Assembly (NCBI RefSeq): GCF_900188435.1
Contig: NZ_FYFA01000002.1
Span: 1-64,000, forward strand
Source of the DNA: Marinobacter sp. es.048
GTDB lineage: Bacteria > Pseudomonadota > Gammaproteobacteria > Pseudomonadales > Oleiphilaceae
Direction of reading: 5' to 3'
DNA: 64,000 nucleotides
In this document: one piece after another, positions 9,134 through 25,441 of the stretch
How positions within the stretch are numbered: the first letter of the stretch is position 1
Layout of the letters: each line of letters starts with the position of its first letter
Position numbers and translations under genes: made by a program
The notes under the pieces: generated by a model
Told to the model about the DNA's origin: nothing
Database searches by the model: none
What the model saw: only the letters and a program-made list of their open reading frames with translations

Positions 9134-9400
9134 ATGAAGCGATCCCGTTACACCGAAGAGCAGATTGCCTTCGCCCTGAAGCAAGCCGAGCTGGGTACGC
9201 CGGTCCCGGAAGTCTGTCGGAAAATGGGCGTCTCGGATGCCACGTTCTACAACTGGCGCAAGAAGTATGGCGGCCTGGGGCCATCCGAGCTGAAGCGACT
9301 CAAGCAGCTGGAGGAGGAGAATCATCGCCTTAAGAAGCTGGTAGCGGACCTAAGCCTGGACAAGGCCATGCTTCAGGACGTGGTGGCAAAAAAGCTCTGA
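9134..9400 (+). CDS. IS3-family transposase OrfA
   Basis: 88 residues, MKRSRYTEEQIAFALKQAEL with the helix-turn-helix VPEVCRKMGVSDATFYNWRK and a leucine-zipper tail (LKQLEEENHRLKKLVADL). OrfA binds the IS ends and regulates transposition. The slippery heptamer A-AAA-AAG is at 9388-9394, four codons before the stop. A -1 slip there enters the orfB frame as KKALRPPRKRQL, which gives the OrfAB fusion that is the active transposase in this family. It lies 77 bases inside the left end. Confidence 0.92.
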   Translation: MKRSRYTEEQIAFALKQAELGTPVPEVCRKMGVSDATFYNWRKKYGGLGPSELKRLKQLEEENHRLKKLVADLSLDKAMLQDVVAKKL

Positions 9401-10275
9401 GACCGCCTCGTAAACGCCAACTGGTGGCTGACCTACAAAAGCGATATGGGGTCAGCGAACGCCAAGCGTGCGCGGTCTTGCAGTTTTCCAGGGCGTCTAA
9501 TCGCTATCAATCGGTGGCGAGGGACTCGTCGGCGCTGTCGATGAGGATCCGTGAGATCACGCTCACGCGGCTTCACTACGGTTACCGGCGTGTGCACGTC
9601 CAGCTGCAACGGGAGGGTTGGCGTGATAATCACAAACGGGTTTACCGGTTATATCGGGACCAGGGGTTGTCACTTCGCCTCAAGCGTCCGAAGCGTAACA
9701 AGGCCGCCAAGAACCGACAGCCGCTACAGCAGGCCAACCATCCCAATCACATCTGGGGCATGGATTTTGTCTCAGACGCGCTGTTTGATGGTCGACGTCT
9801 GCGTCTCCTGACGATCATTGATCTGTTCACCAGGGAGTGCCTCGGCATTGTGGTTGGGCAGAGCCTGAAGGGCCACGATGTTCAGGAAGCCCTGACGGCG
9901 ATTGCGCGCTTCCGGGGCAACCCGGAGGTGCTAAAGACCGACAACGGTTCGGAGTTTGCCGGCAAGGTCATGGATCGCTGGGCCTATGAGCGAAACATTG
10001 AAATCGACTTCTCACGGCCCGGGAAGCCTACCGACAACGCAACGGTAGAATCGTTCAATGGACGACTCCGGCAGGAATGTCTGAATGAAAATTGGTTCTT
10101 GTCACTGGCCGACGCCATGGAGAAAATCGAAGCATGGAGGACTTTCTATAACCAAGTCAGACCCCATTCCGCATTGGAGTGGTGCACGCCCTCGGACTAC
10201 GCCAGAAAACATGCGGTTTCACGAAGAAAACAGAAGCAACTGGAGCCGGATTTTTCCAACTCTGGGTGGACCTAA
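9388..10275 (+). CDS. IS3-family transposase OrfB (DDE integrase core)
   Basis: Open from the slippery run at 9388 (internal candidate start about 9424) to TAA at 10275. HTH_21-type region YGVSERQACAVLQFSRASNR, then the rve integrase core: MDFVSDALFDGRRLRLLTII (first Asp), LKTDNGSEFAGKVM (second Asp), KPTDNATVESFNGRLRQECL (Glu). C-terminal YNQVRPHSALEWCTPSDYA is typical. Expected to be made as OrfAB by programmed -1 frameshifting. No lesions seen, so the element may be active. Confidence 0.9.
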   Translation, partial: KKALRPPRKRQLVADLQKRYGVSERQACAVLQFSRASNRYQSVARDSSALSMRIREITLTRLHYGYRRVHVQLQREGWRDNHKRVYRLYRDQGLSLRLKRPKRNKAAKNRQPLQQANHPNHIWGMDFVSDALFDGRRLRLLTIIDLFTRECLGIVVGQSLKGHDVQEALTAIARFRGNPEVLKTDNGSEFAGKVMDRWAYERNIEIDFSRPGKPTDNATVESFNGRLRQECLNENWFLSLADAMEKIEAWRTFYNQVRPHSALEWCTPSDYARKHAVSRRKQKQLEPDFSNSGWT

Positions 10276-13015: not shown

Positions 13016-14539
13016 ATGTTACAACGAGTTTTAATTAATACCGGGTCTAACGTTGCTCAACTTATGGTTAGCATGGTGGCGACGTTCATCATGGCGCCAA
13101 TTTACCTGAAGATGATGGGGCACCACGACTATGGCTTGCGGGAAATGGTGCTCGCTCTGGTCGGCTATATGGGGATGCTGGACTTGGGCATGCGCCCAAC
13201 GGTGAGTCGGTTTGCGTCCATGCATAACGCGCAGAATGATCGGGAATCCTTACTAACTGTTTATGGTACCAGTCTCGTATTTATGACGCTGGTTGGTGTA
13301 ATTCTTGGATTGTTCTTCTGGCTTTGGGCGCTTTCCTTCCCTGACATACTTAACCCGGAAGGCATGGAAGGTAACACAAAGTATACATTGTTTCTGCTGC
13401 TGGTAGGCGCACAGTTGGTGTTTCTGTTTCCGGGCTTTGTTTGTGAAAGTTTTCTTGAAGGCCTGCAACGCTATTACTTCAAGAACCTGGTTAATATTTT
13501 TTCTATTGTTTTAATTTCAGTTCTGGCCTATCACTACATCACTCCGGAAAACGCTCTGGCACTCCTGGCCTTGTTGGCCGCTGTTGGTACGCTAATTAAG
13601 TTAATTATTTTTGCCGCCATACTCATGCGACCAATGGTGGGTGCAATTTATCCAAATTTGCGTCTGTTTTCGCGTGAAAAATTCAGAGAGATGCTGGCTT
13701 TTGGTTTTAAATCTTTTATTCAGGGTGCGGCCGGAAAAGTAGAAAAGATGTCTGACCGAATTGTTATCGGTACAATCATGAGTCCGGCAATGATACCTGT
13801 TTATACGATACCGGCCACACTCGTAACCTATATGGCAACAATAAGCATGACGTTGAGTCATACGTTTATGCCGCTGTTCAGCGATCTTGATGCAAGGGGC
13901 GAGCGCGAAAAAAGTAAAATTGTGTATCTTCTGGCTAGCAAGTTGCTGGTCGCGTTGGTTATACCTATGGGGGTAGGCATTTGTCTCGTAGGAGGGCCCT
14001 TCATTGCCATTTGGATGAGCGGGCAGTTTGACCCAGACTTGGTCGACGCAATTCTCATTCTATTGGTTATCTACATGGGTGTTCCAAAGCTCAACCCATT
14101 TGCCAGCCGCTATCTGACAGCTATTAACAAACACGTTATTTTTGCGAAGGTGGCACCTCCGGCAGCGCTTGTTAATCTGGGCCTAAGCATCTGGTTGGTT
14201 CTGGAGTATGGCGTTATCGGTGCGGCGTTGGGTTCGGTGTTGCCGGTATTTGTGGTAATGCCAATATTCCTCAAGGTTGTTGCTGATAATTTAGGAATCA
14301 CCATGCTTCAGTACGTGAAGCATGCCATTCTGCCGGCCATTATTCCGGTGATGGTTATGGGCGGTGGCTTGGCCTGGTGGCGGGTAGAGTACGGGTTGGC
14401 TGGCTACCTCGATATTGTCGCCGCCGTTGTGGCATCTGGAGTTGTGTATGGCGTATTGTACTGGTTTATTTCCATCGGTAAGGACGAACGTGACGTACTA
14501 ATGAGGCTGATGCCTGCGCGTTTCAGACAGGGTGTATGA
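13016..14539 (+). CDS. Polysaccharide flippase, Wzx/MVF type
   Basis: 507 residues with about 12-14 hydrophobic helices spread evenly. N-terminus LINTGSNVAQLMVSMVATFI followed by YLKMMGHHDYGLREMVLALV, and the central KMSDRIVIGTIMSPAMIPVY, are typical of the oligosaccharide flippase family (MOP superfamily). It would move lipid-linked repeat units to the periplasmic face. The 160 bp before it hold no recognisable gene; a short hydrophobic frame (about 12902-12985) may be chance. Only a weak ribosome site precedes ATG 13016. Confidence 0.9.
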   Translation: MLQRVLINTGSNVAQLMVSMVATFIMAPIYLKMMGHHDYGLREMVLALVGYMGMLDLGMRPTVSRFASMHNAQNDRESLLTVYGTSLVFMTLVGVILGLFFWLWALSFPDILNPEGMEGNTKYTLFLLLVGAQLVFLFPGFVCESFLEGLQRYYFKNLVNIFSIVLISVLAYHYITPENALALLALLAAVGTLIKLIIFAAILMRPMVGAIYPNLRLFSREKFREMLAFGFKSFIQGAAGKVEKMSDRIVIGTIMSPAMIPVYTIPATLVTYMATISMTLSHTFMPLFSDLDARGEREKSKIVYLLASKLLVALVIPMGVGICLVGGPFIAIWMSGQFDPDLVDAILILLVIYMGVPKLNPFASRYLTAINKHVIFAKVAPPAALVNLGLSIWLVLEYGVIGAALGSVLPVFVVMPIFLKVVADNLGITMLQYVKHAILPAIIPVMVMGGGLAWWRVEYGLAGYLDIVAAVVASGVVYGVLYWFISIGKDERDVLMRLMPARFRQGV

Positions 14540-14555: not shown

Positions 14556-16523
14556 ATGTGCGGTTTCGCAGGATTTTCCGGCCCCGATTTGCCTGGTACC
14601 AGAGACCAGTGTGAAACGGTACTGAATAGCATGGGGCATGCTATTTTGCACCGGGGGCCAGATGCGGGCGGTGTCTGGTTTGACGGACAGTTGCGTTTGG
14701 GGCTGAGCCACCGACGCCTTTCTATTATCGACCTGTCTGAACTTGGTGCCCAGCCGATGGCATCTGAATCTGGCCGTTACGTGATCTCCTTTAACGGTGA
14801 GATCTATAATTTCCGCAGCCTCAGAACGGAACTGGAGAGTGTCGGCGCCCGGTTCCGCGGCCATTCCGATACGGAAGTCATGCTTGCCGCCTTCGAGGCG
14901 TGGGGTGTGGAGCGGGCATTGGGTCGCTTTAACGGGATGTTTGCCTTTGCCTTGGCAGACAGACACCAGCGCAAGCTTTATCTCGCCCGGGACCGGATGG
15001 GAGAGAAGCCACTGTATTATGGCTGGCAGGGGCGTTCCCTTCTGTTTGGTTCAGAACTCAAGGCCCTTGCGTGCCATCCCTCCTGGAAAGGGGAAGTTAA
15101 TCGTGGTGCATTGCCGTTGTTGTTGCGTCACAACCTCATTCCAGCGCCCCATTCCATCTATTCCGGTATCTATAAACTGCTCCCCGCGTCATTCATTAGT
15201 CTGGACTTGGATCAGCTAGTGCCCGGGGAGCTGCCTGAACCCTCTCGCTATTGGCGCCTCGAAGAGCAGTTTGATAATGGCCGGGACTGGACTTTGGAGG
15301 GTGCCTCTTCCCATCTCGAAACGTTGCTTGAGGACGTGGTTGATGATCAGATGGTTTCAGACGTCCCTTTGGGAGCGTTTCTGTCCGGTGGTGTGGATTC
15401 CTCTACTATCGTGGCGCTGATGCAAAAACAGGCCAGTCAGCCGGTTAGAACGTTCAGCATTGGTTTCAATGAAGAGGGGTTTAATGAAGCTGTACACGCG
15501 GCGGCGGTGGCAAACCACCTGGGCACGGACCATACTGAGCTATATGTTACAGAGCAGAATGCAAGGGATCTGGTACCGCGTTTGCCGCAGATCTACGATG
15601 AACCGTTCGCGGATTCTTCTCAGCTGCCCACTTATCTTGTCAGTGAAATGACCCGCAAACACGTGACTGTGGCGCTGTCCGGTGATGGTGGTGATGAATT
15701 GTTCTGCGGGTACACTCGTTACCCAAGCATGCTTCGTGGTTGGGAGCGGCGCGGTTCCCTTGGCTCCCGCTTGAAAGAACTCTCCGGTCGGCTGCCGCCT
15801 GGCATGACCGCACTGGCCATCCGTGCTCTGGTGCCATCCCAGAAAGGGCGTAGTGCGGAAGCAATTCGGTTCCGTCTCGCGCGAGCCAGAGCTATTACGT
15901 CTGCCAGGACCTTGTCTGAGTTTTACCGGCAATCTGTGTCTTTCTGGCCCGATCCTGCCATGGCATTAGTGGAGTCAGGTGAGGGCAGTTATGGGCTGAT
16001 GGGCACGCTTCCGGCCCAGGTGCCGGACAATGATCTGAAAACCCTGATGTGGCGGGACCTGAACTGGTACCTGCCAGACGATATACTGACCAAGGTGGAT
16101 CGTGCCGCCATGGCCTGCAGCCTGGAAACTCGTATTCCAATGCTGGACCATCGAGTAGTGTCGTTTGCCATGGGACTGCCTGCATCTCTTAATATGAACG
16201 GGAAAGTCGGTAAGCAGGTGCTTCGGTCAGTACTTTTCCGCCATGTGCCGCGGAAACTGATTGATCGGCCGAAACAGGGTTTTGCCGTTCCGGTGGCAGC
16301 TTGGCTCAGGGGGGCTTTGCGGGAGTGGGCGGAAGAGTTGCTGGAACCGGCCAGACTGCGTGAACAGGGGTATTGGAAGGCAGACATGGTTCGGCAGGTG
16401 TGGCATGAACATCTTTCAGGCCGGGAAGACTATAGTTTTGAGTTGTGGGGTATTTTGATGTTTCAGGCATGGCTCGCGAACATGGGCAGTGCGGACCTTT
16501 TGTCATCGAACAGGTCCGCGTGA
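14556..16523 (+). CDS. Asparagine synthase-type glutamine amidotransferase (AsnB family)
   Basis: 655 residues. Begins MCGFAGFSG, with Cys2 as the class II glutaminase nucleophile; LGLSHRRLSIIDLS and SFNGEIYNFRSL complete the Ntn site. The synthetase half has the PP-loop FLSGGVDSST near residue 276 and ALSGDGGDELFCGYTRYP. Family reaction: ATP-dependent transfer of glutamine ammonia to a carboxylate. In EPS and exosortase A loci this family is thought to amidate sugar acids or carry out similar chemistry rather than make free asparagine. GGGAG 12 bases before the ATG. It heads a tight run: the next ATG follows the stop directly. Confidence 0.93.
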   Translation: MCGFAGFSGPDLPGTRDQCETVLNSMGHAILHRGPDAGGVWFDGQLRLGLSHRRLSIIDLSELGAQPMASESGRYVISFNGEIYNFRSLRTELESVGARFRGHSDTEVMLAAFEAWGVERALGRFNGMFAFALADRHQRKLYLARDRMGEKPLYYGWQGRSLLFGSELKALACHPSWKGEVNRGALPLLLRHNLIPAPHSIYSGIYKLLPASFISLDLDQLVPGELPEPSRYWRLEEQFDNGRDWTLEGASSHLETLLEDVVDDQMVSDVPLGAFLSGGVDSSTIVALMQKQASQPVRTFSIGFNEEGFNEAVHAAAVANHLGTDHTELYVTEQNARDLVPRLPQIYDEPFADSSQLPTYLVSEMTRKHVTVALSGDGGDELFCGYTRYPSMLRGWERRGSLGSRLKELSGRLPPGMTALAIRALVPSQKGRSAEAIRFRLARARAITSARTLSEFYRQSVSFWPDPAMALVESGEGSYGLMGTLPAQVPDNDLKTLMWRDLNWYLPDDILTKVDRAAMACSLETRIPMLDHRVVSFAMGLPASLNMNGKVGKQVLRSVLFRHVPRKLIDRPKQGFAVPVAAWLRGALREWAEELLEPARLREQGYWKADMVRQVWHEHLSGREDYSFELWGILMFQAWLANMGSADLLSSNRSA

Positions 16524-17714
16524 ATGTCTGAATTTCCGTGCGTGATCATTACCGGAGCAGATACCCCTACAGGCCTTATGACCGCGCGCGCGCTGAAAGG
16601 CTTGCCGGTCACGGTCAATGGCATTTTTCAGGAGAGAGGCGCACCCTCGATTAAATCGATGCATTGGGATCGATTGGTTTATTTACCAGGAAGCCCGGAA
16701 GAACAGCTTGATGCACTGATAAAAAAAGCAGAAGCGGCCGAATTTCCAGGCCGTCCTATATTACTTTTTTCCCAGGATAGCCATGTAATCTCCGCTTGGG
16801 CGCGGCTTGAGGAGCTGGATCGATATTTTATTGTGCCGATTCCGCCCCAAAAGGAGGGCGAAATAATGATGGATAAAACACGGTTCCATCAATGGGCGCT
16901 TGAGAATGGGGTCGATGTGCCTCGATCTGAAATCGTGGCAAGCCTTGATGGTCTGATTGATTTGGCGGCAGATTTAAGTTTCCCCTGCATACTGAAACCT
17001 CTCGTGCGCACCTCAGCCTGGGATAGCGCGCATAAGAATAAGAAGTTTTTCTTGTTGAATTCAGAGAAAGAGTTGCAAGAATTTGTTCGCTCCGCCGACC
17101 CATTTCGTCTCTCCAACCGTTTCATTCTTCAGGAATGGGTTCCCGGGGGTGACTCTGAGGTGTTTTTCGTGCTTTTCGCTTTTGATGAAAACGGGGTGAT
17201 GTTAGCCGAATATGCTGGTCAGAAGCTATGGCAATGGCCGCCATTGGGTGGGTCAACAGCAGTTTGTCGATTGATCGAAGCACCTCAGTTGATTTCGCAT
17301 GCAAGATCAATTGCAATCAGGTTGAAAATGACGGGCCTCGGCTCTATCGAGTTCAAGCGGGATCCAAGAACCGGAAAGTTTCTGGTTACTGAGCCAACAG
17401 TGGGTCGAAACGACTATCAGTCAGGGGTGGCTTTGAATTATGAAAATAATCCTACCGCAGCTCTGGTAAAAACATACCTGGGACTCGACGGAGGGAGCGG
17501 ATTTGCCAAAAAGACCAAAGCTAATTGCGTTTGGGTGGATGAGTTGTCAGCCTACCGGTACGCCAAGTCGATAGGGCCGCTCAAGGCTAGTGTTCGGTTA
17601 ATCAGAGCGCTTGGTTTTATTCGCCATTTTCAGTTTTTGTATTTTGATCGGCGGGACACAAAACCGTTTCGAGCGCATCTAAAAAAAGCGCTTTCAAAGA
17701 AGCATCCAGTATGA
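16524..17714 (+). CDS. ATP-grasp ligase, carbamoyl-phosphate-synthase-like
   Basis: 396 residues. N-terminal Rossmann-like pre-ATP-grasp VIITGADTPTGLMTARALKG; ATP-grasp core from about residue 115: MDKTRFHQWALENGVDVP, FPCILKPLVRTSAWDS (Lys for ATP), FILQEWVPGGDSEV, and metal ligands in GLGSIEFKRDP (near 270) and VTEPTVGRNDYQSG. Such enzymes join a carboxylate to an amine through an acyl phosphate. Immediately after asnB and overlapping the GNAT gene by ATGA, so the three are probably one functional unit decorating the polysaccharide. Substrates unknown. Confidence 0.87.
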   Translation: MSEFPCVIITGADTPTGLMTARALKGLPVTVNGIFQERGAPSIKSMHWDRLVYLPGSPEEQLDALIKKAEAAEFPGRPILLFSQDSHVISAWARLEELDRYFIVPIPPQKEGEIMMDKTRFHQWALENGVDVPRSEIVASLDGLIDLAADLSFPCILKPLVRTSAWDSAHKNKKFFLLNSEKELQEFVRSADPFRLSNRFILQEWVPGGDSEVFFVLFAFDENGVMLAEYAGQKLWQWPPLGGSTAVCRLIEAPQLISHARSIAIRLKMTGLGSIEFKRDPRTGKFLVTEPTVGRNDYQSGVALNYENNPTAALVKTYLGLDGGSGFAKKTKANCVWVDELSAYRYAKSIGPLKASVRLIRALGFIRHFQFLYFDRRDTKPFRAHLKKALSKKHPV

Positions 17715-18382
17715 GAGCGGTTAGAAGCTTTTTGCGGCGGGCATTTCGTTTTGATCTGGATGCCTACTTCCTGTTTTCTGATTCACTGGAAAGCGGGCTG
17801 TTGGCGGAATATGCGAACGTTTACCCCAAAAATTTGACAGTTGAATATTATATCGTTGAAAAGCCCTCAGAAGATGCATTGTTAATCAAGCTCTGCAAAG
17901 AGGGGGGGTATTTGGGATCAACAGACCAGCTGGTAAGGAAAAACCTGGCACTTACTTCCGGCCGGGTAGACAGGTGTATCGTTGCGAAGCATGAAAACCA
18001 GTATGTGGCAATGAGCTGGGTAGCTTTGGGTCAGCGTGTTGAATGGCCACCATTTGCGCAAGTTCCCCTCACTCAAAAGAGCGCGGGCCTCCTGCACCTC
18101 AGCTACGTAAAACCGGAATATCGTGGACATTGTTTGCAAAGATTTCTCGATTTGCAGCGTAAAAAGCTGCTGGCGGAGCATGGGTTTGAACAGTCGGTGA
18201 GTTTTGTCGGGGTCAATAACCTTAGTTCGGTGAGAAACTCTATGGCATGCAATGAGAGTTTCAAATTGATATATCACCTCTCCTTTGAAGTTCCAGGTTT
18301 GAAGAAAATCAATTTCTTTCCGAAATGGAATCAGGAGAACTGGAAATCGTGCAGGGCGCATGCAAATAGATGGATTCCGTGA
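17711..18382 (+). CDS. GNAT-fold acyltransferase-like protein
   Basis: 223 residues. The segment LLHLSYVKPEYRGHCLQRFL near residue 135 resembles the acetyl-CoA-binding motif A of GNAT enzymes, followed by SVSFVGVNNLSSVRNSMACN in the place of motif B (Asn-x-x-Ser-x-x-x-Asn). The first 60 residues match nothing I know. Together with the upstream ATP-grasp gene (ATGA overlap) it may acylate an amino sugar or amino-acid substituent. Assignment rests on these motifs only. Confidence 0.65.
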   Translation: MRAVRSFLRRAFRFDLDAYFLFSDSLESGLLAEYANVYPKNLTVEYYIVEKPSEDALLIKLCKEGGYLGSTDQLVRKNLALTSGRVDRCIVAKHENQYVAMSWVALGQRVEWPPFAQVPLTQKSAGLLHLSYVKPEYRGHCLQRFLDLQRKKLLAEHGFEQSVSFVGVNNLSSVRNSMACNESFKLIYHLSFEVPGLKKINFFPKWNQENWKSCRAHANRWIP

Positions 18383-18419: not shown

Positions 18420-19310
18420 ATGCTAAAGGACGAGCCACTGATCAGTATTATTACGCCGACCTATAACCGTGCGGACTTTGTCGCGCAGGCTGTGCAAAGC
18501 GTTCTAGATCAGACCTATCAAAACTTCGAGCATCTCATTGTGGACGATGGCTCTACCGACAATACCCGGGAAGTACTGGACCCGTTTCTTGCTGATCCAC
18601 GCTTGCGATACTTTTACCAAGAAAATCAAGGCCAGAGCGTGGCGCGAAACCTCGCGCTTGAGCACGCCCGCGGCGAGTTCATATGTTTTCTTGATTCGGA
18701 TAATGTGTGGCTGCCAATTAATCTCGAATCACAGCTAGAAGCATTTCAAGAGACACCAGACGTTGATATTGTCTATGGGGACGGCATAACTATCGACAAA
18801 CAGGGCAACGAACTCGGCCGGAAAAATATAAAGAGACACTCGGGGTGTATCGCCTTCCAGATGCTTAAAGATAATTGCGTTGGTATGAATATGACGATGG
18901 CTCGACGTAAATGCTTTGAGGAAATGGGGGGCATGAGCGGAAAGCGTAGAGTGGCGGATGACTATGACCTTTGGCTGAAGTTTTCATCCCGTTATCGTTT
19001 CCGATATGTACCCCGTTATCTGGCCTATTATCGGGTGATGGATGATCAGATTTCCTCAGACAAGGAGGCCCGTTTCGAAACTAACGAGTCAATCATTCGG
19101 GATTTTCGAGAGAATTACCCCAAGGTTTTAACTGAAGCGCAATTTGATGAAGCGTTCGCGTTTTTTTACTCACGCAAGGCGCGCTACCTGGCACGGTCGG
19201 GGCATAAGTGGCTTGCCATTCGAAACGTTGCGACGGCTTTAAAATATCGGCCTTTTGTGATGGTGCCATGGCGCAGCCTCGCTGCAATTTTGCTCAAGGG
19301 CGGGCGGTAA
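18420..19310 (+). CDS. Glycosyltransferase family 2 (GT-A fold), paralogue of the gene at 22858
   Basis: 296 residues. ISIITPTYNRADFVAQAVQS, HLIVDDGSTDNTREVL, RYFYQENQGQSVARNLALEH and the metal site FICFLDSDNVWLP (DxD kept, next residue Asn where most have Asp). C-half VADDYDLWLKFSSRYRF and YYRVMDDQISSDKEARF. Very similar along its whole length to the product at 22858, so one arose by duplication. AAGAGC before ATG 18420. The next gene starts one base after its stop. Confidence 0.92.
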   Translation: MLKDEPLISIITPTYNRADFVAQAVQSVLDQTYQNFEHLIVDDGSTDNTREVLDPFLADPRLRYFYQENQGQSVARNLALEHARGEFICFLDSDNVWLPINLESQLEAFQETPDVDIVYGDGITIDKQGNELGRKNIKRHSGCIAFQMLKDNCVGMNMTMARRKCFEEMGGMSGKRRVADDYDLWLKFSSRYRFRYVPRYLAYYRVMDDQISSDKEARFETNESIIRDFRENYPKVLTEAQFDEAFAFFYSRKARYLARSGHKWLAIRNVATALKYRPFVMVPWRSLAAILLKGGR

Positions 19311-19311
19311 A

Positions 19312-20475
19312 ATGCGCTCCAACACAGACACTTTTATGGGTGAGCCCCATATTTTTGTGGAGCGCCTTACCGCTGATGATTTCAGCAAGCTCGCAGGGGA
19401 ATGGCAGGAAGTGTTGGAAAGTAGCGAGGCTGACCCGCTTTTTATGAGTTGGCCGTGGCTTTTTTCCTGGTGGGAAATCTGGGGCAAAGATCTGGGGTTG
19501 GAATTGGCGCTCTTTGGGGCTTACGACGCCAATTCACGTCTTGTTGGTCTCGCGCCGTTTTATTTACATGATTTTTCATCTCCTTTTGGGCTGCGAATTC
19601 GACGCGCTCACTTTTTGGGCAATGCCTGGCATATTAGCCCGACTGTTCGCACAGAGTATTCAAGCCTCATAATCAAGAAAGGAATGGAGGCGGTTGTCAC
19701 AAATGCTCTTTTGTCAGAAGTAACCCGGCTCGACTGGCATGAAATGGTCGTATGTGACCAGTTGTTGCCTGAGCTTTCCCGCTGGAAAAGGGGATTATTA
19801 CTTGGAGGTAGAAAAATTGCTCTGGTACCTCGGGCGAGGGATATCGGGGTACGCGTACCGACAGAAGGGTCATTCCGCGAGTGGCTCCGTAAGCTCGGAG
19901 CTAACACACGCCTTAAACTTTATAATCGACGAGAGTACATCAAACAGAAGAGGGGAGATCTCGTTTTAACTCGTGTCACAGAGAAGCAGATGGCGGGCTT
20001 TTTCGAGCATTTAAATGAGTTCCATCGGCATAGATGGGGAAAGAGCTGTTTCGATGACAAAGCTGTCGCGTTTCACAAAAAGGTCATTGCTCGACTTCAA
20101 CATCACCAATTGGGATTGACAGCTTTGGAGTTTAACGGGGAAACCGTATCGGTCCTTTATGATATTTTGGCTGGCTCCAGTAGGTACAACTTGCAAGCGG
20201 GATTTCAGGAGGGTTTTGATCGGAAGGTGGCCTTGGGAACTCTACATCTCGGATATGCTATTGAGGAATGTTTTAGTGCCGAGAGCGTCCGTTCCTATGA
20301 TCTACTTGCCGGTTATGGCAAAAACAGCTTTTATAAAAGCCGCTTCCAGGGAGAAACGGTTCAGTTTGTAACCGTTCAGTTTGCGCGTCACCCGCTCATG
20401 CGAGGAATTTATCGGGCGCAGGCTTTTCTCCCGGGGGGGGTTCGCAGATCACTAAACCGACTTGCCCGGTTATGA
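19312..20475 (+). CDS. FemAB/CelD-like GNAT acyltransferase (Acetyltransf_6 type)
   Basis: 387 residues. N-terminus has FVERLTADDFSKLAGEWQEV and PLFMSWPWLFSWWEIWG, typical of the double-GNAT BioF2/CelD family; the second half contains FREWLRKLGANTRLKLYNRR, ALEFNGETVSVLYDIL and LGTLHLGYAIEECFS...YDLLAGYGKNSFYKSRF. Relatives lie in cellulose and exosortase A polysaccharide loci and in FemABX peptidyl-transferases that use aminoacyl-tRNA. Likely transfers an acyl or aminoacyl group to a sugar amine; donor unknown. Possible alternative start at ATG 19336. Confidence 0.82.
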   Translation: MRSNTDTFMGEPHIFVERLTADDFSKLAGEWQEVLESSEADPLFMSWPWLFSWWEIWGKDLGLELALFGAYDANSRLVGLAPFYLHDFSSPFGLRIRRAHFLGNAWHISPTVRTEYSSLIIKKGMEAVVTNALLSEVTRLDWHEMVVCDQLLPELSRWKRGLLLGGRKIALVPRARDIGVRVPTEGSFREWLRKLGANTRLKLYNRREYIKQKRGDLVLTRVTEKQMAGFFEHLNEFHRHRWGKSCFDDKAVAFHKKVIARLQHHQLGLTALEFNGETVSVLYDILAGSSRYNLQAGFQEGFDRKVALGTLHLGYAIEECFSAESVRSYDLLAGYGKNSFYKSRFQGETVQFVTVQFARHPLMRGIYRAQAFLPGGVRRSLNRLARL

Positions 20476-20561: not shown

Positions 20562-21686
20562 ATGATAATTAGCAACATCAACTCCAGAAAAATAGAAAAC
20601 CAGGTGGAGGTTTCTGCCTTAATAGATGGGTATCGGCTTTGGTATCGCTTTCCCGCTAATTTTTCAGCATCGCTTTCGGTCGAACCGTTCTTGGTGGCAT
20701 CATTTTTTGTGGCATCCCGGTCAGGTCAGCCTGTGGAGGTTAAAGACTCAAAGACGGCCTCGCCTCGTCTTCTTGCAAACTTTAAACGCCTGCAGTGCAT
20801 CTTCGGAACCTGGAAACGAGACCTAAGACCTTTCACCGTTAATGTTCAGGCCGCTGAACTGCATGCCGACAACGCAATGGTTTGTAGTTTTTTCTCGGGT
20901 GGCGTGGATAGTCTGTATACTCTTATTAACAATGAAAGTGAAATTACTCATCTGGTTTACATCAACGGGTTCGATTTTCATGTATCGCCGGAAGAGTTTG
21001 CGATTAATGTCCAGAGACTAAGAGATTTGTCGGCACCTTTCGAAAAGGAAATTATTCCTGTAGAAACGAATTTTTTTGATTTTGATAAACTGTATGGTGT
21101 TGGACGTCACTGGAGTCATGGTGCCAGCCTTGCAAGTGTTGCTTTACTGCTTCAGCCTGCTAAATGCATTGTGCCTACCACCTTTACTTATCGGGACTTG
21201 CGGCCTTGGGGAACGCATCCGTTGACCGACAATCTCTGGTCTACTGAAGTTACAGAGATCCTTCATGATACCGCAGACCGTGAACGCCCCGAAAAAATCA
21301 GGAAAATCGCGGAGCGGTCTCAAGCCGTACTCGATAGCCTGGTGGTGTGCTGGACGTATCCGGACAAGAATTGTGGTCAGTGTATAAAGTGTATAAGAAC
21401 AATGATCATATTGAAAATACTTGGCATAGAAACTAATAGTTTTCCAGGTTCTATTTCTCCTGAATATGTTTCTAGATTATCTCCATCGGAGCATTATCGA
21501 GCTTACTTTGAAGATTTACTGAGGTTTGCGCGAGAACAAGGCGATGAATCTATGGTAAAAGCTCTGCAAAAATCCCTGTCAGTTTCTATGACCAAGAAAA
21601 TTGTAAAATTATTTGATGATAGATATTTAAATGGAAGTATTAGGTCCGGTTTCCGATACTTACAAAAGAAGGCGTCAAAGGCATAA
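20562..21686 (+). CDS. QueC-like PP-loop ATP pyrophosphatase with zinc motif
   Basis: 374 residues. PP-loop SFFSGGVDSLYTL (SGGVDS at 112-117) for ATP pyrophosphate binding, and C263-x7-C271-x2-C274-x2-C277 (CWTYPDKNCGQCIKC), which has the spacing of the zinc site in QueC-type 7-cyano-7-deazaguanine synthases. An extra 100-residue N-terminal beta-rich region and a long C-terminal tail separate it from true QueC. Such enzymes adenylate a carboxylate or carbonyl and let a nitrogen nucleophile attack. No other queuosine gene is nearby, so a role in EPS modification is more likely. Coding sequence turns AT-rich towards its 3' end; the next ATG follows the stop with no gap. Confidence 0.8.
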   Translation: MIISNINSRKIENQVEVSALIDGYRLWYRFPANFSASLSVEPFLVASFFVASRSGQPVEVKDSKTASPRLLANFKRLQCIFGTWKRDLRPFTVNVQAAELHADNAMVCSFFSGGVDSLYTLINNESEITHLVYINGFDFHVSPEEFAINVQRLRDLSAPFEKEIIPVETNFFDFDKLYGVGRHWSHGASLASVALLLQPAKCIVPTTFTYRDLRPWGTHPLTDNLWSTEVTEILHDTADRERPEKIRKIAERSQAVLDSLVVCWTYPDKNCGQCIKCIRTMIILKILGIETNSFPGSISPEYVSRLSPSEHYRAYFEDLLRFAREQGDESMVKALQKSLSVSMTKKIVKLFDDRYLNGSIRSGFRYLQKKASKA

Positions 21687-22799
21687 ATGAAAAGATTATG
21701 GAATCGATATAAAGATAATATCCTCATTATTCAAGAGTCATATCGAGTTGCTGGTCTCTGCGTAAAATATTATGGCGGCTTTAGAGTTCGAGCGTTTTTA
21801 AAGGCCTTGCGTTTCACATGGGAAACCAAGATGCGTCCGATGGAGGCACTTGAGTACGGTGCATTTTCTTCCGGGGCACGTCAATACTCAGACTACCTAA
21901 GTAAAAGGACGTGCTCGGTCCTACAGTCGCGCCTTAACCCCCAAGACTGGTTTTGGGTGACTGAGGATAAGGGGATCTTTCAGTCTTTTTGCGATGCAAA
22001 TAAAATACAGACGCCTAAGTGTCTGGCTCTTCTTTTCCGCAATTCGCCGGGCATTTCCTCAGGGCGCCCGGTGCCCGCAACCAAAAGCGCGTGGGCAGAG
22101 GTAATATCCCGGCTTGATCTGGATAAAGTTGTTATTAAACCGTGCCGGCATAGTTACGGACGTGGTCTCCTGGTGCCTTTGCTCCGTGAAGACCGGATAG
22201 AAGTCAACAACATCAAATTTGACTCTGCGCAAGAGCTGGCAAATTATATGTTCGACCTGCCAGAGTTGACGAGCTGGATTGTTCAGGAACGAATTCAATC
22301 ACATTCTGCGCTATCCGAGTTTTCTGGAACAAAACATCTTCAAACTATGAGAATTTATACCCACGTTGATAAACGTGGGAAGATTTTTATTATTGATGCT
22401 TTTCTAAAGGTTATTGGTGGGGATGCTGCGATCGACAACTTCCAGCATGGCTCGCTGGGCAATTTTATAGCACCGATAGATATAGAGTCAGGCCAGCTTG
22501 AGTCTGCGATTACGAGAAGTCCGGATATGCTGTGGTATAGATTTGATGTTCACCCCAGAACCAAACGAAAGTTTCAGGAATTTACGATACCGTTATGGGA
22601 GCACGCAAAAGAATTAGTCATTAAAAATGCTGAATGTTTTAAACCTATTCGATCATTGGGATGGGATGTTGCAATTACAGAGGACGGCCCTGTGGTTATC
22701 GAAACGAACATGCGTTGGGACCCGCCAAACTGGAATCCAGAGACTATATATAATGTCCGTAAAGTGCTTGAAAACCCGGATAGTGTGTTTGCGAAGTAA
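21687..22799 (+). CDS. ATP-grasp protein of the sugar-transfer-associated type
   Basis: 370 residues. Core motifs: VVIKPCRHSYGRGLLVPLLR near residue 150 (Lys and glycine-rich loop), WIVQERIQSHSALSEFSGTK, TMRIYTHVDKRGKIFIIDAF, FQHGSLGNFIAPIDIESGQL, and SLGWDVAITEDGPVVIETNM (metal ligands Asp and Glu-x-Asn). This layout matches the sugar-transfer-associated ATP-grasp family found in capsule clusters. The N-terminal 100 residues are basic and helical. Starts directly after the PP-loop gene, which suggests paired action, for example activation by one and amide formation by the other. Confidence 0.82.
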   Translation: MKRLWNRYKDNILIIQESYRVAGLCVKYYGGFRVRAFLKALRFTWETKMRPMEALEYGAFSSGARQYSDYLSKRTCSVLQSRLNPQDWFWVTEDKGIFQSFCDANKIQTPKCLALLFRNSPGISSGRPVPATKSAWAEVISRLDLDKVVIKPCRHSYGRGLLVPLLREDRIEVNNIKFDSAQELANYMFDLPELTSWIVQERIQSHSALSEFSGTKHLQTMRIYTHVDKRGKIFIIDAFLKVIGGDAAIDNFQHGSLGNFIAPIDIESGQLESAITRSPDMLWYRFDVHPRTKRKFQEFTIPLWEHAKELVIKNAECFKPIRSLGWDVAITEDGPVVIETNMRWDPPNWNPETIYNVRKVLENPDSVFAK

Positions 22800-22857: not shown

Positions 22858-23730
22858 ATGGCAACCGTTAGCGTAGTGACGCCAACCTACAACAGGGCCC
22901 GGTTCCTGCCGGATGCCGTTGCGAGTGTCCTGGCGCAGACTTACGCGGATCTTGAGCTCATTGTTGTGGATGATGGCTCTGTTGATAATACGCGCAAAGT
23001 GCTGGAGCCGTTCCTGTCTGACGGGCGGGTGCGGTATTTCTACCAGGAAAATCAGGGCCAGAGCCATGCCCGCAATCATGCCATCGAGCAGGCGACGGGA
23101 GATTTTATCGCGTTTCTCGATTCTGACGATCTCTGGGCGCCATACAAACTGAAGAAGCAGTTAGCGATTCTCAAGGCAAATCCCGACGTCGATGTTATCC
23201 ATGGTGACGAGGCCATGATTGATGAGCAGGGCTCAGTTATAAGCTTGGAGAACATGAAGCGTTATTCCGGTTACATCACACGTTACCTGTTGGCTGACAA
23301 CAGCGTTAGCATTGCCACGGTTCTGGTGAGGCGGCGATGTTTTGATGAGATGGGTGGATTTGATACGTCAATGGGCGTGGCTGATGACTACGAGCTGTGG
23401 CTGAGGTTTTCCGCAAGATACCTTTTCCACTACGAACCGTGCATTGTCGCCTCATACCGCGTGATGGCGGATCAGATTTCCTCTGACAAGCGTAGGCGTT
23501 TCGCGGCAAACGAAAAGATTATTCGTACATTCCTGGCGCGGCATGGTGAGGTGCTTTCTGTGCGTGATCGTCGTTGGGGGTTGGCTCGATTTTTCTGTCG
23601 TAAGGCGCGATATTTCGCCAGCGTGGGAGAACGGTACGTTGCCACCGGTGCTGTGGCCCGCGCATTTTGGTATGCGCCACTGGCTCCGGTTGTCTGGCGA
23701 GCGCTCTATCGTGTAATCGTGCCGAGGTGA
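22858..23730 (+). CDS. Glycosyltransferase family 2 (GT-A fold), paralogue of the gene at 18420
   Basis: 290 residues. VSVVTPTYNRARFLPDAVAS, LIVVDDGSVDNTRKVL, RYFYQENQGQSHARNHAIEQ, FIAFLDSDDLWAP (full DxDD), VADDYELWLRFSARYLF and YRVMADQISSDKRRRF. Closely similar to the product at 18420, including the acceptor-side half. More GC-rich than the two genes before it. GTTGGGGACTTGCA precedes ATG 22858. Last plus-strand sugar gene before the exosortase. Confidence 0.93.
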   Translation: MATVSVVTPTYNRARFLPDAVASVLAQTYADLELIVVDDGSVDNTRKVLEPFLSDGRVRYFYQENQGQSHARNHAIEQATGDFIAFLDSDDLWAPYKLKKQLAILKANPDVDVIHGDEAMIDEQGSVISLENMKRYSGYITRYLLADNSVSIATVLVRRRCFDEMGGFDTSMGVADDYELWLRFSARYLFHYEPCIVASYRVMADQISSDKRRRFAANEKIIRTFLARHGEVLSVRDRRWGLARFFCRKARYFASVGERYVATGAVARAFWYAPLAPVVWRALYRVIVPR

Positions 23731-23893
23731 CAACTATTAATGCGAGGGTAGTCGGATTCTATCCAAGAGACCGTTTCTCCATTCATCTCCAGAGCAATCC
23801 TGACCAGGGCCGGGTTGTGATTCAGTCGTGGCAAAAAAGGCTACATGCAGGCACAATGTTTTAATTCGGCTTAGAGGTAAGGGATGTAAGCTC

Positions 23894-25441
23894 ATGACGA
23901 TTGAAGGGATTCGCGATCGCAGTTTGGTTAACAAGATACTTCCGTTCCTGGTAATATTTGCCTTTCTTTTCCTGCTTATCTGGCCCACCGTCGGAGGAAT
24001 TGTCAGCCGCTGGTTCAAGTTTGACGAATCCTACTCCCATGGCTTGTTGCTTCTGTTGGTTTCCGCTTTTCTTATTGTTCGAACGCTTAAAAGAGAGTCG
24101 CCGGTTGCCGGGTTTTATCCGATGTGGCTATTGCCTTTTGCCATTGCGTTAATTGCCTACGGCCTTGGCGATATTCTGCGCGTTCAAGCGTTGCAAGAGT
24201 TGACTGTTGTTCCCCTGTTATTGGGGACGCTTGCTATTTTGCTGGGTTGGCACCAGGTGAAGGCGTTTATTATTCCAGTCGGTATTCTTTTCTTTACCGT
24301 GCCGGTATGGGATTACCTGTCCTGGACCCTTCAGGTCATTACGGTTGAGATAAACCGGCTGTTGCTGGGTTTTTTTGATATTGATTTTGAGGTGGAAGGG
24401 GTATTTGTATACCTGATTGGCGTTGGTGCCTTTGAGGTGGCGCACGGTTGCTCTGGCTTACGATACCTCCTGGTTGGTCAGTCCCTGGCTGCGTTGTATG
24501 GAGAGCTTAATTTCAGGCGTCTGCGTTCAAGGGTCGTGTTTTTTCTGACGGCGGTTGGCTTTGCGTTATTGGCTAACTGGATTCGGGTTTTCGTAATCAT
24601 TTATATGGGCTACGTAACCAACATGGAAACGAGTCTGATCCGTGACCACGACAACTTCGGTTGGTGGGTGTTTGCGGCGACTCTTGTGCCGCTATTCTTA
24701 ATTGGCCGAAAACTGGAAACGACCAATGCGGAACAGGCACCTCGGGCCGAAGGTGCGATGCCTTCTACTGGCAAAGGTGGTTACCGCCGAATTTGGTCCG
24801 GTGTTTTAGCCACCTCCGCACTGCCAATTATGATTCTGGGGCTTCTATCTTCCACTGCTGGAGAAATAAAGCCCTCACCGGATTCATTTGATCTTAGTTT
24901 GAACACCGAGCGTTATGGGCAATTGTTCGGGAATCGACTGAGTGGCTGGAAACCGCAAGTGCGCAACCCTGATCTCGTCTTTGTTCAGACAATGTTTGAC
25001 CGGGAGGCTGTTACCGGTGACTCGGGACCAGAGCAGCAGCTGTTTGTAGGTGTGTACAGTTATGGGTATCAACGCCACAGAGCGGAGCTTGTTCAATACC
25101 ACAACCGTATCTATGACCGCGATGAGTGGTTACCAGAAAGGTTCTTTAAAGTGACATCGCCCTCCGGCATCCCCCTCCAGGGGGTATCTTTGCGAAGCTT
25201 GTCATCCGGAAAACACGTGCATCTGGCGTACGGCTATTATGTTGCGGGCTTGTGGGAGACCGACCAGTGGCGCGCAAAGCTTGCTCAGGTCGTCAGCTTT
25301 TTTAGTCCCCGGACGGACGCATCTCTGATTGTTTTCGGCACCGCCTGTGAAGACTGCGATGGTGAGACCGCAGTCGGTGAGTTGGTGCGCGACGTTATGG
25401 GGCCGATTGTTGAACAGGTTGACCAGCACTTCCAGCAATAA
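23894..25441 (+). CDS. xrtA: Exosortase A with C-terminal EpsI domain
   Basis: 515 residues from ATG 23894; the longer frame from 23828 lacks a good start context. About eight membrane helices carry the exosortase catalytic residues: Cys186 (EVAHGCSGLRYL), Arg231 (ANWIRVFVII) and His252 (RDHDNFGWWVF). After a TM near residue 310 a periplasmic domain of about 190 residues (DSFDLSLNTERYGQLFGNRL onward) resembles EpsI, which is a separate protein in some species. XrtA cleaves PEP-CTERM sorting signals at the inner membrane. It closes the EPS gene run and faces prsT convergently; its substrate gene is at 32320. Confidence 0.95.
   Translation: MTIEGIRDRSLVNKILPFLVIFAFLFLLIWPTVGGIVSRWFKFDESYSHGLLLLLVSAFLIVRTLKRESPVAGFYPMWLLPFAIALIAYGLGDILRVQALQELTVVPLLLGTLAILLGWHQVKAFIIPVGILFFTVPVWDYLSWTLQVITVEINRLLLGFFDIDFEVEGVFVYLIGVGAFEVAHGCSGLRYLLVGQSLAALYGELNFRRLRSRVVFFLTAVGFALLANWIRVFVIIYMGYVTNMETSLIRDHDNFGWWVFAATLVPLFLIGRKLETTNAEQAPRAEGAMPSTGKGGYRRIWSGVLATSALPIMILGLLSSTAGEIKPSPDSFDLSLNTERYGQLFGNRLSGWKPQVRNPDLVFVQTMFDREAVTGDSGPEQQLFVGVYSYGYQRHRAELVQYHNRIYDRDEWLPERFFKVTSPSGIPLQGVSLRSLSSGKHVHLAYGYYVAGLWETDQWRAKLAQVVSFFSPRTDASLIVFGTACEDCDGETAVGELVRDVMGPIVEQVDQHFQQ

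Follow-up and report, generated by a model that had tools for sequence, protein, structure and literature searches.

A QueC-fold PP-loop zinc protein in a Marinobacter surface-polysaccharide locus belongs to a large unnamed family often found among glycan genes

The window analysed here is a stretch of 64,000 nucleotides from Marinobacter sp. es.048 (contig NZ_FYFA01000002.1, positions 1 to 64,000), whose 4.06 Mb genome consists of two contigs. On the plus strand, closely spaced genes between 11728 and 25441 form a surface-polysaccharide locus that ends with an XrtA-like exosortase and includes glycosyltransferases, a flippase, an asparagine-synthase-type amidotransferase, two ATP-grasp proteins, a PF13480 transferase, a small gene, and the subject of this study, a PP-loop protein of 374 amino acids that we call Q. 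This protein belongs to a large unnamed family that is separate from QueC and often occurs in glycan gene clusters. A sequence-only reading of the window had noted SGGVDS at residues 112-117 and C263-x7-C271-x2-C274-x2-C277, had compared both with the ATP and zinc sites of QueC, and had paired Q with an ATP-grasp gene starting right after its stop codon. Both motifs are present in the sequence and recur in the family alignment, and the two genes indeed abut, with the TAA of Q at 21684-21686, the ATG of the ATP-grasp gene at 21687, and AAAGG a few bases upstream of this ATG. The two genes and the features of Q are as follows.

20562..21686, plus strand: Q, PP-loop zinc protein of QueC/QatC fold, 374 amino acids (predicted fold, family alignment)
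20562..20870, plus strand: N-terminal extension of Q, residues 1-103, without QueC equivalent and comparable to the QatC extension
20895..20912, plus strand: SGGVDS PP-loop, residues 112-117 (sequence, alignment)
21204..21245, plus strand: residues 215-228, PWGTHPLTDNLWST, aligned with TxTxHP of QatC (profile alignment)
21285..21296, plus strand: Arg242-x-x-Lys245, near invariant (212/214 rows each)
21348..21392, plus strand: zinc-type ligands Cys263, Cys271, Cys274 and Cys277 (214/214 rows)
21432..21683, plus strand: C-terminal helical extension of Q, residues 291-374 (model)
21687..22799, plus strand: ATPgrasp_ST (PF14397), RimK/ArgX-like ATP-grasp, 370 amino acids (Pfam 134.6 bits against a cut-off of 31.4)

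QueC-fold enzymes are known for preQ0 synthesis and, recently, for protein modification in phage defence. The structure model of Q is confident (predicted local distance difference test score, pLDDT, 95.8) and finds its closest fold in QatC, including the N-terminal extension, followed by QueC and Cap9; in the model, this extension comprises strands at residues 2-11, 14-21, 24-31 and 58-60 and helices at 41-46, 48-54 and 68-84. Conservation of the ATP-loop and cysteine sites exceeds chance: in a family alignment of 214 rows (193 distinct sequences), the four cysteines of the C-x7-C-x2-C-x2-C motif and Lys276 occur in every row, and Gly114 and Asp116 are kept in all 213 filled rows. Lys245 probably matches the lysine that is conserved before the zinc site in QueC, QatC and Cap9.

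A protein search with Q returned 436 relatives at E<=0.001, and a search with divergent members returned 263; among the best 120 listed for each, no entry comes with a precomputed Pfam domain. Both Q and the ATP-grasp protein at 21687 have their nearest named relatives in Marinobacter. When species genomes were scanned, at least 588 stretches matched, 508 of them encoding a Q relative, and the best 80 were taken as loci; these span 20 named phyla, three loci being without a phylum assignment. Occurrence is sporadic, with Q in 7 of 120 genomes of the genus and in 12 of 369 at class level (two of the latter by marginal matches of ~17 bits), both genome sets being samples from larger groups. No description of the family was seen in full-text searches of PubMed Central (PMC), subscription journals lying outside their scope.

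At 15 of 81 loci, Q is represented by two or more genes or pieces. At L009 (8771-9949), L012 and L073 (2980-4164), very divergent paralogues adjoin an ordinary Q, those of L009 and L073 being ~20-24% identical to the Q of the window, and at L009 the second copy lies between Q and ATPgrasp_ST; such side-by-side arrangements suggest heteromers or successive steps. A longer version of ~507 amino acids, with an insertion of ~130 residues after the PP-loop half, is found at L003 (11308-12831, Aminicenantota), P0029, P0044, P0050 and others; the one at L003 has no Pfam match over the cut-off.

Several lines of evidence separate Q from QueC. At E<=1, Q matches no Pfam family (including PF06508) and no NCBIfam family, and a PF06508 search of the whole genome matches only C1:433557-434168; sub-cut-off PF06508 matches were seen in two Q relatives (12.2 and 14.4 bits against a cut-off of 22), and two of the 120 listed relatives bear the source name '7-cyano-7-deazaguanine synthase in queuosine biosynthesis'. 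The genuine queC of the genome (TIGR00364) overlaps queE (TIGR04508) by one base and lies on the other contig; its product has 221 amino acids, so that Q exceeds it by ~150 residues, close to the ~140 given by the sequence-only reading. The motifs YxQxHxxE, VPxRN and YPDC are absent from the sequence and profile alignments of Q. That reading had also seen no queuosine genes nearby, which holds as far as tested: with the QueE of the same genome and its QueD-family protein (TIGR03367, 41.8 bits, under its cut-off) as single-sequence phmmer queries, no relative was detected at E<=0.001 among the predicted genes of the window and the 80 loci. In short, the predicted fold of Q is that of the QueC superfamily and its ATP-loop and zinc sites are conserved, yet Q is not QueC.

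The substrate pocket differs as well. Passages of PMC13279940 attribute deazaguanine recognition to Tyr129/Asp131 in B. subtilis QueC and to Tyr115/Asp117 in Cap9, and give Thr278 and Thr280 as the equivalent positions in QatC. In a pocket alignment anchored on the Thr/Ser-His-Pro common to Q and QatC, these positions are Pro215 (190 of 214 rows) and Gly217 (195 of 214). This changed pocket, together with the lack of YxQxHxxE and VPxRN (motifs as described in passages of PMC13329287), argues against 7-carboxy-7-deazaguanine as the substrate of Q.

Among characterized proteins, QatC (of qatABCD; PDB 9y02/9y01; NF041925) is the best full-length fold match, sharing with Q an N-terminal strand/helix extension, the QueC core, a helical C-terminal extension and the Cys4 site; extensions at both ends of a QueC core are described for QatC in passages of PMC13279940. 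It differs in its cysteine spacing (C(x)19CGxCxxRR in passages of PMC13329287, as against C-x7-C-x2-C-x2-C) and its Thr-Thr instead of Pro-Gly pocket, and Q sits among glycan genes. The top-25 neighbour families of Q, in lists that are not exhaustive, do not include qatA, qatB or qatD. QueC (PF06508; PDB 3bl5/2pg3) shares the SGGxDS loop, the Cys4 motif and the core fold, its spacing being C(x)8CxxCxxC according to the same passages of PMC13329287, where Q has x7; it lacks the additional length and has the three motifs missing from Q. Cap9 of type IV CBASS (cyclic-oligonucleotide-based antiphage signalling system; PDB 9nto) has the core fold and the Cys4 site, but, as passages of PMC13329287 have it, is minimal (~185 amino acids) and keeps the YxDC that binds 7-carboxy-7-deazaguanine, which the 374-residue Q is without. 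When PDB sequences were searched with Q or with its profile, only weak, unconvincing matches resulted. Two places (L150 and L151), suspected as QatC from the PF06508 search, looked MnmA- and ThiI-like by eye and were dropped.

Genes were predicted by simple open reading frame (ORF) calls in the window, the 80 loci and L001, yielding 94 same-strand genes within 300 bases of Q as immediate neighbours. Among the 91 that were scanned (the others being two L063 genes from an identical locus pair and one short L064 gene), the polysaccharide pyruvyl-transferase family PF04230 accounts for 14, PF14397 for 11, glycosyltransferase family 2 (GT2) for six and asparagine synthase for five. In a control of 137 genes four to nine positions off on either strand (4 of 141 having been omitted over a length or size limit), PF04230 and PF14397 each occur at most twice, giving Fisher P values of 7e-5 and 1e-3, respectively, with the far count taken as its upper bound of two and locus relatedness ignored. 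A six-frame scan within 1.5 kb of Q detected ATPgrasp_ST at 14 of 81 loci (12 on the same strand), PF04230 at 15 (13 on the same strand) and an asparagine-synthase-type amidotransferase at 11. PF04230 assignments at L036 and L040 are weak in our own profile and above the Pfam cut-off, and that at L028 comes from the six-frame profile alone. In addition, three proteins are fusions of Q with PF04230 (L066, L064 and L196), those of L064 and L196 being 51% identical.

In a quick maximum-likelihood tree of 98 Q proteins (two of 100 Q genes, encoding <130 amino acids, were omitted), a clade of 40 rows (Shimodaira-Hasegawa-like approximate likelihood ratio test, SH-aLRT, 96) holds the Q of 13 of the 14 ATPgrasp_ST loci and a clade of 50 rows (SH-aLRT 94) all 15 PF04230 loci; several long branches meet in this tree, and the placement of the most divergent rows is unsure. 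Two branches of Q differ in their partner. Depending on the locus, ATPgrasp_ST lies upstream or downstream of Q, and the association therefore does not reflect a single frozen operon. The divergent ATP-grasp-like protein encoded at 16524-17714 in the window also recurs with Q at 14 of 81 loci, which include 8 of the 14 ATPgrasp_ST loci (P 1.8e-4). The ATP-grasp at 21687 is itself a clear PF14397 member in which K95, K151, D327, E339 and N341, which we take to be the ATP-grasp lysines and Mg ligands, are invariant in 34 rows.

Within the genus, loci with and without Q can be compared directly. The exosortase is found in 107 of 120 genomes, and five Q-less loci were chosen whose exosortase is 72-88% identical to that of the window (selection at >=72%; G090, G080 and G106 were left out), a gene being scored absent if tblastn at E<=1e-15 over half its length finds nothing. 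Further genes of the locus are:

13016..14539, plus strand: polysaccharide flippase-like protein (family match)
14556..16523, plus strand: asparagine-synthase-type amidotransferase with GATase domain, part of the exopolysaccharide locus core (family matches)
16524..17714, plus strand: second, divergent ATP-grasp-like protein of the cassette, 396 amino acids (weak family matches only)
17711..18382, plus strand: small cassette protein, 223 amino acids (no Pfam match at E<=10)
18420..19310, plus strand: glycosyltransferase family 2 (family match)
19312..20475, plus strand: FemAB/GNAT-type transferase (PF13480), version specific to the cassette (Pfam, genus comparison)
22858..23730, plus strand: glycosyltransferase family 2 (family match)
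23828..25441, plus strand: exosortase (XrtA-like), marker of the locus (family match)

All five Q-less loci keep the glycosyltransferases, the flippase and the amidotransferase at 45-90% identity; by tblastn they lack the second ATP-grasp, the 223-residue protein, Q and ATPgrasp_ST, and their FemAB-like protein is only 45% identical to that of the window. Three other genomes with Q have all five genes at 74-94% identity. Since the five genes come and go together, the varying unit is a five-gene cassette, and Q and the ATP-grasp belong to this swap cassette within the conserved exosortase/exopolysaccharide locus of the genus. For the small cassette protein, the counterpart in Marinobacter sp. 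F3R08 has a GNAT match under the cut-off (E 0.02).

PF14397 as such occurs in 116 of the 120 genus genomes; in most cases the gene is of another type, with scores of ~300 bits, and distinct from that of the window. The window-type ATP-grasp (80-100% identity) is confined to four genomes, the same four that have a close Q, and is always adjacent to it; nine more genomes have matches of only 23-33%, none outside the four exceeding 33%. The remaining three of the seven Q genomes have a more divergent Q with no window-type ATP-grasp next door, one of them (G095) having a PF14397 gene ~5.5 kb off. The proposed pair of Q and ATP-grasp is accordingly real, recurring at 14 of 81 loci and in 4 of 120 genus genomes, but it is one variant of a broader theme: as an obligate two-gene pair it had to be rejected, given the 67 of 81 loci without the ATP-grasp within 1.5 kb, the three genus genomes without it adjacent, and the co-variation of five genes.

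The best account of a core that is kept and a pocket that is changed, among glycan genes and beside ligases and transferases, is that Q adenylates an acyl group and lets it pass to nitrogen. On this view, Q would be an enzyme of the QueC superfamily, with an N-type ATP pyrophosphatase fold and a zinc-type Cys4 site, and would modify a surface polysaccharide destined for export. With ATP bound in the SGGVD loop, the acyl group that it adenylates would most likely be a carboxylate, located on a sugar or on a substituent that the sugar carries, or possibly an amide oxygen; a nitrogen nucleophile would displace AMP and leave an amide-type linkage on the glycan precursor or its substituent. We infer these two steps from the chemistry of the superfamily, as passages of PMC13279940 and PMC13329287 describe activation of a carboxylate by ATP and subsequent attack by nitrogen for QueC and Cap9; the reaction of QatC is, in passages of PMC13279940, not yet settled. 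In the genus cassette, Q may work with the two ATP-grasps and the FemAB-like transferase, which could make or extend amide links, and in the other branch the pyruvyl-transferase-family partner could supply a carboxylate-bearing group. The sequence-only reading had offered nitrile, amide or hydrazide formation on a sugar; by analogy, amide-type chemistry would fit the superfamily best, with no specific support here for a nitrile or hydrazide. QueC makes its nitrile in a second turn, and a nitrile product of Q in the same manner would be possible. Overall, we put the chances of acyl adenylation leading to an amide-type decoration on a surface glycan at about even.

A number of observations weigh against this reading. 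Profile comparison by hhalign is weak for Q against both QatC (score 41.1, probability 52%) and QueC (score 33.7, probability 26%). Position 117 of the PP-loop is Ser in 142, Gly in 58, Ala in 12 and Cys in one of 213 rows; the window has Ser, as has a relative at 48% identity, whereas Gly (SGGVDG) is present in eight of eight checked relatives at 72-84% identity. For the Arg of the QueC VPxRN motif, Q has no conserved equivalent (121 of 209 filled rows have His186), and because of this and of Gly117 in close relatives, catalysis may differ from that of QueC. With regard to the neighbours, the near/far control was unmatched for strand as well as blind to relatedness, and neither glycosyltransferases (GT2, GT4) nor asparagine synthase show significant enrichment beside Q (P 0.12 to 0.53). 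Neither ATPgrasp_ST nor PF04230 lies within 1.5 kb at 52 of 81 loci (some of which are short contigs), and although no locus of the 81 has both, the exclusion is weak (P=0.042); L075, an ATPgrasp_ST locus, sits in the PF04230 clade. The PF14397 proteins at other Q loci aligned with that of the window at only 18-24% identity, and for this reason the ATP-grasps may not all do one reaction. Finally, supply of the carboxylate by PF04230 is a guess, as this family may include proteins with other reactions.

An alternative that we consider unlikely is that Q converts an N-acyl sugar to an amidine or imidate in the manner of WbpG/PseA-type enzymes and thus represents a second kind of sugar amidotransferase. 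WbpG/WbuX (TIGR03573) is likewise a PP-loop enzyme of surface-sugar synthesis, the glycan setting is similar, asparagine-synthase-type amidotransferases are found near Q as counted above, and hhalign of Q against eight WbpG-like proteins gives 45.7, above the scores for QatC and QueC. This alignment is restricted to the PP-loop half, however, and Q has no TIGR03573 match at E<=1, nor does any other protein of its genome match that model. The WbpG family is not among the listed fold matches of the Q model, which is no evidence against it.

Quite unlikely, in our view, is that Q acts like QatC or Cap9 and attaches a small carboxylate to a partner protein, perhaps a polysaccharide enzyme, at its N-terminus. 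The closeness of the QatC fold over the whole chain would fit such a role; the Pro-Gly pair at the positions of Tyr-Asp in QueC and Cap9 and of Thr-Thr in QatC would not. Q matches no QatC model of NCBIfam or PADLOC (the genome has no match to NF041925, and a PADLOC search of seven Q proteins and the ATP-grasp returned no match), and a Met-Gly start occurs in none of the 94 immediate neighbours, a weak point as ~1.5 would be expected (19 of 1206 genes) and starts were simply called. Sulfur transfer to a sugar or cofactor, suggested by LarE, MnmA and ThiI among the PP-loop fold matches of the model, is very improbable: the only invariant cysteines are the four that match the QueC/QatC zinc site, and the top-25 neighbour lists, which are not exhaustive, contain no sulfur-carrier family. 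An ordinary QueC or preQ0 enzyme that happens to occupy an exopolysaccharide locus was rejected as practically inconceivable, PP-loop, zinc motif, two so-named relatives and two sub-cut-off matches notwithstanding, since PF06508 and all three motifs are missing, queC and queE lie elsewhere, and no QueD or QueE relative was detected among the predicted genes of the loci.

If acyl adenylation by Q proves true, it would add a decoration chemistry for bacterial exopolysaccharides. Being present in many phyla and often beside sugar-modifying enzymes, Q may decorate surface sugars with a chemical group not yet described. That a broad family of QatC-like architecture exists among glycan genes points to recruitment of the fold for an additional purpose and provides QatC with a structural relative outside defence. 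More speculatively, and in our estimate doubtful, Q may found an additional branch of the QueC superfamily, one not acting on deazaguanines, that adds a so far undescribed nitrogen-containing group (amide-linked, amidine or even nitrile) to surface glycans in ~20 phyla; the ATP-grasp and the pyruvyl-transferase-family protein would then each prepare an acyl substrate of their own for the same PP-loop chemistry, and QatC might share the extended architecture by common descent. The chemistry is directly testable, thanks to a conserved core with a changed pocket, the PF04230 fusions, and a cassette whose presence varies between loci that are otherwise alike.

Some minor observations concern the surroundings. 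The other PF14397 gene type of the genus, exemplified by G000:C2:826209-827030, is present in most of its genomes. In one genome of the genus, G024 (L152:6291-9104), a divergent Q follows a protein of 545 amino acids with an asparagine-synthase domain and no glutaminase match. The exosortase of the window (23828-25441) has 537 amino acids, reaches 196.8 bits against an XrtA cut-off of 208, and weakly matches DUF3485 towards its C-terminus. The polysaccharide locus is preceded at a short distance by IS3-family transposase genes at 9134-10275 (NF033516 in two adjacent ORFs).
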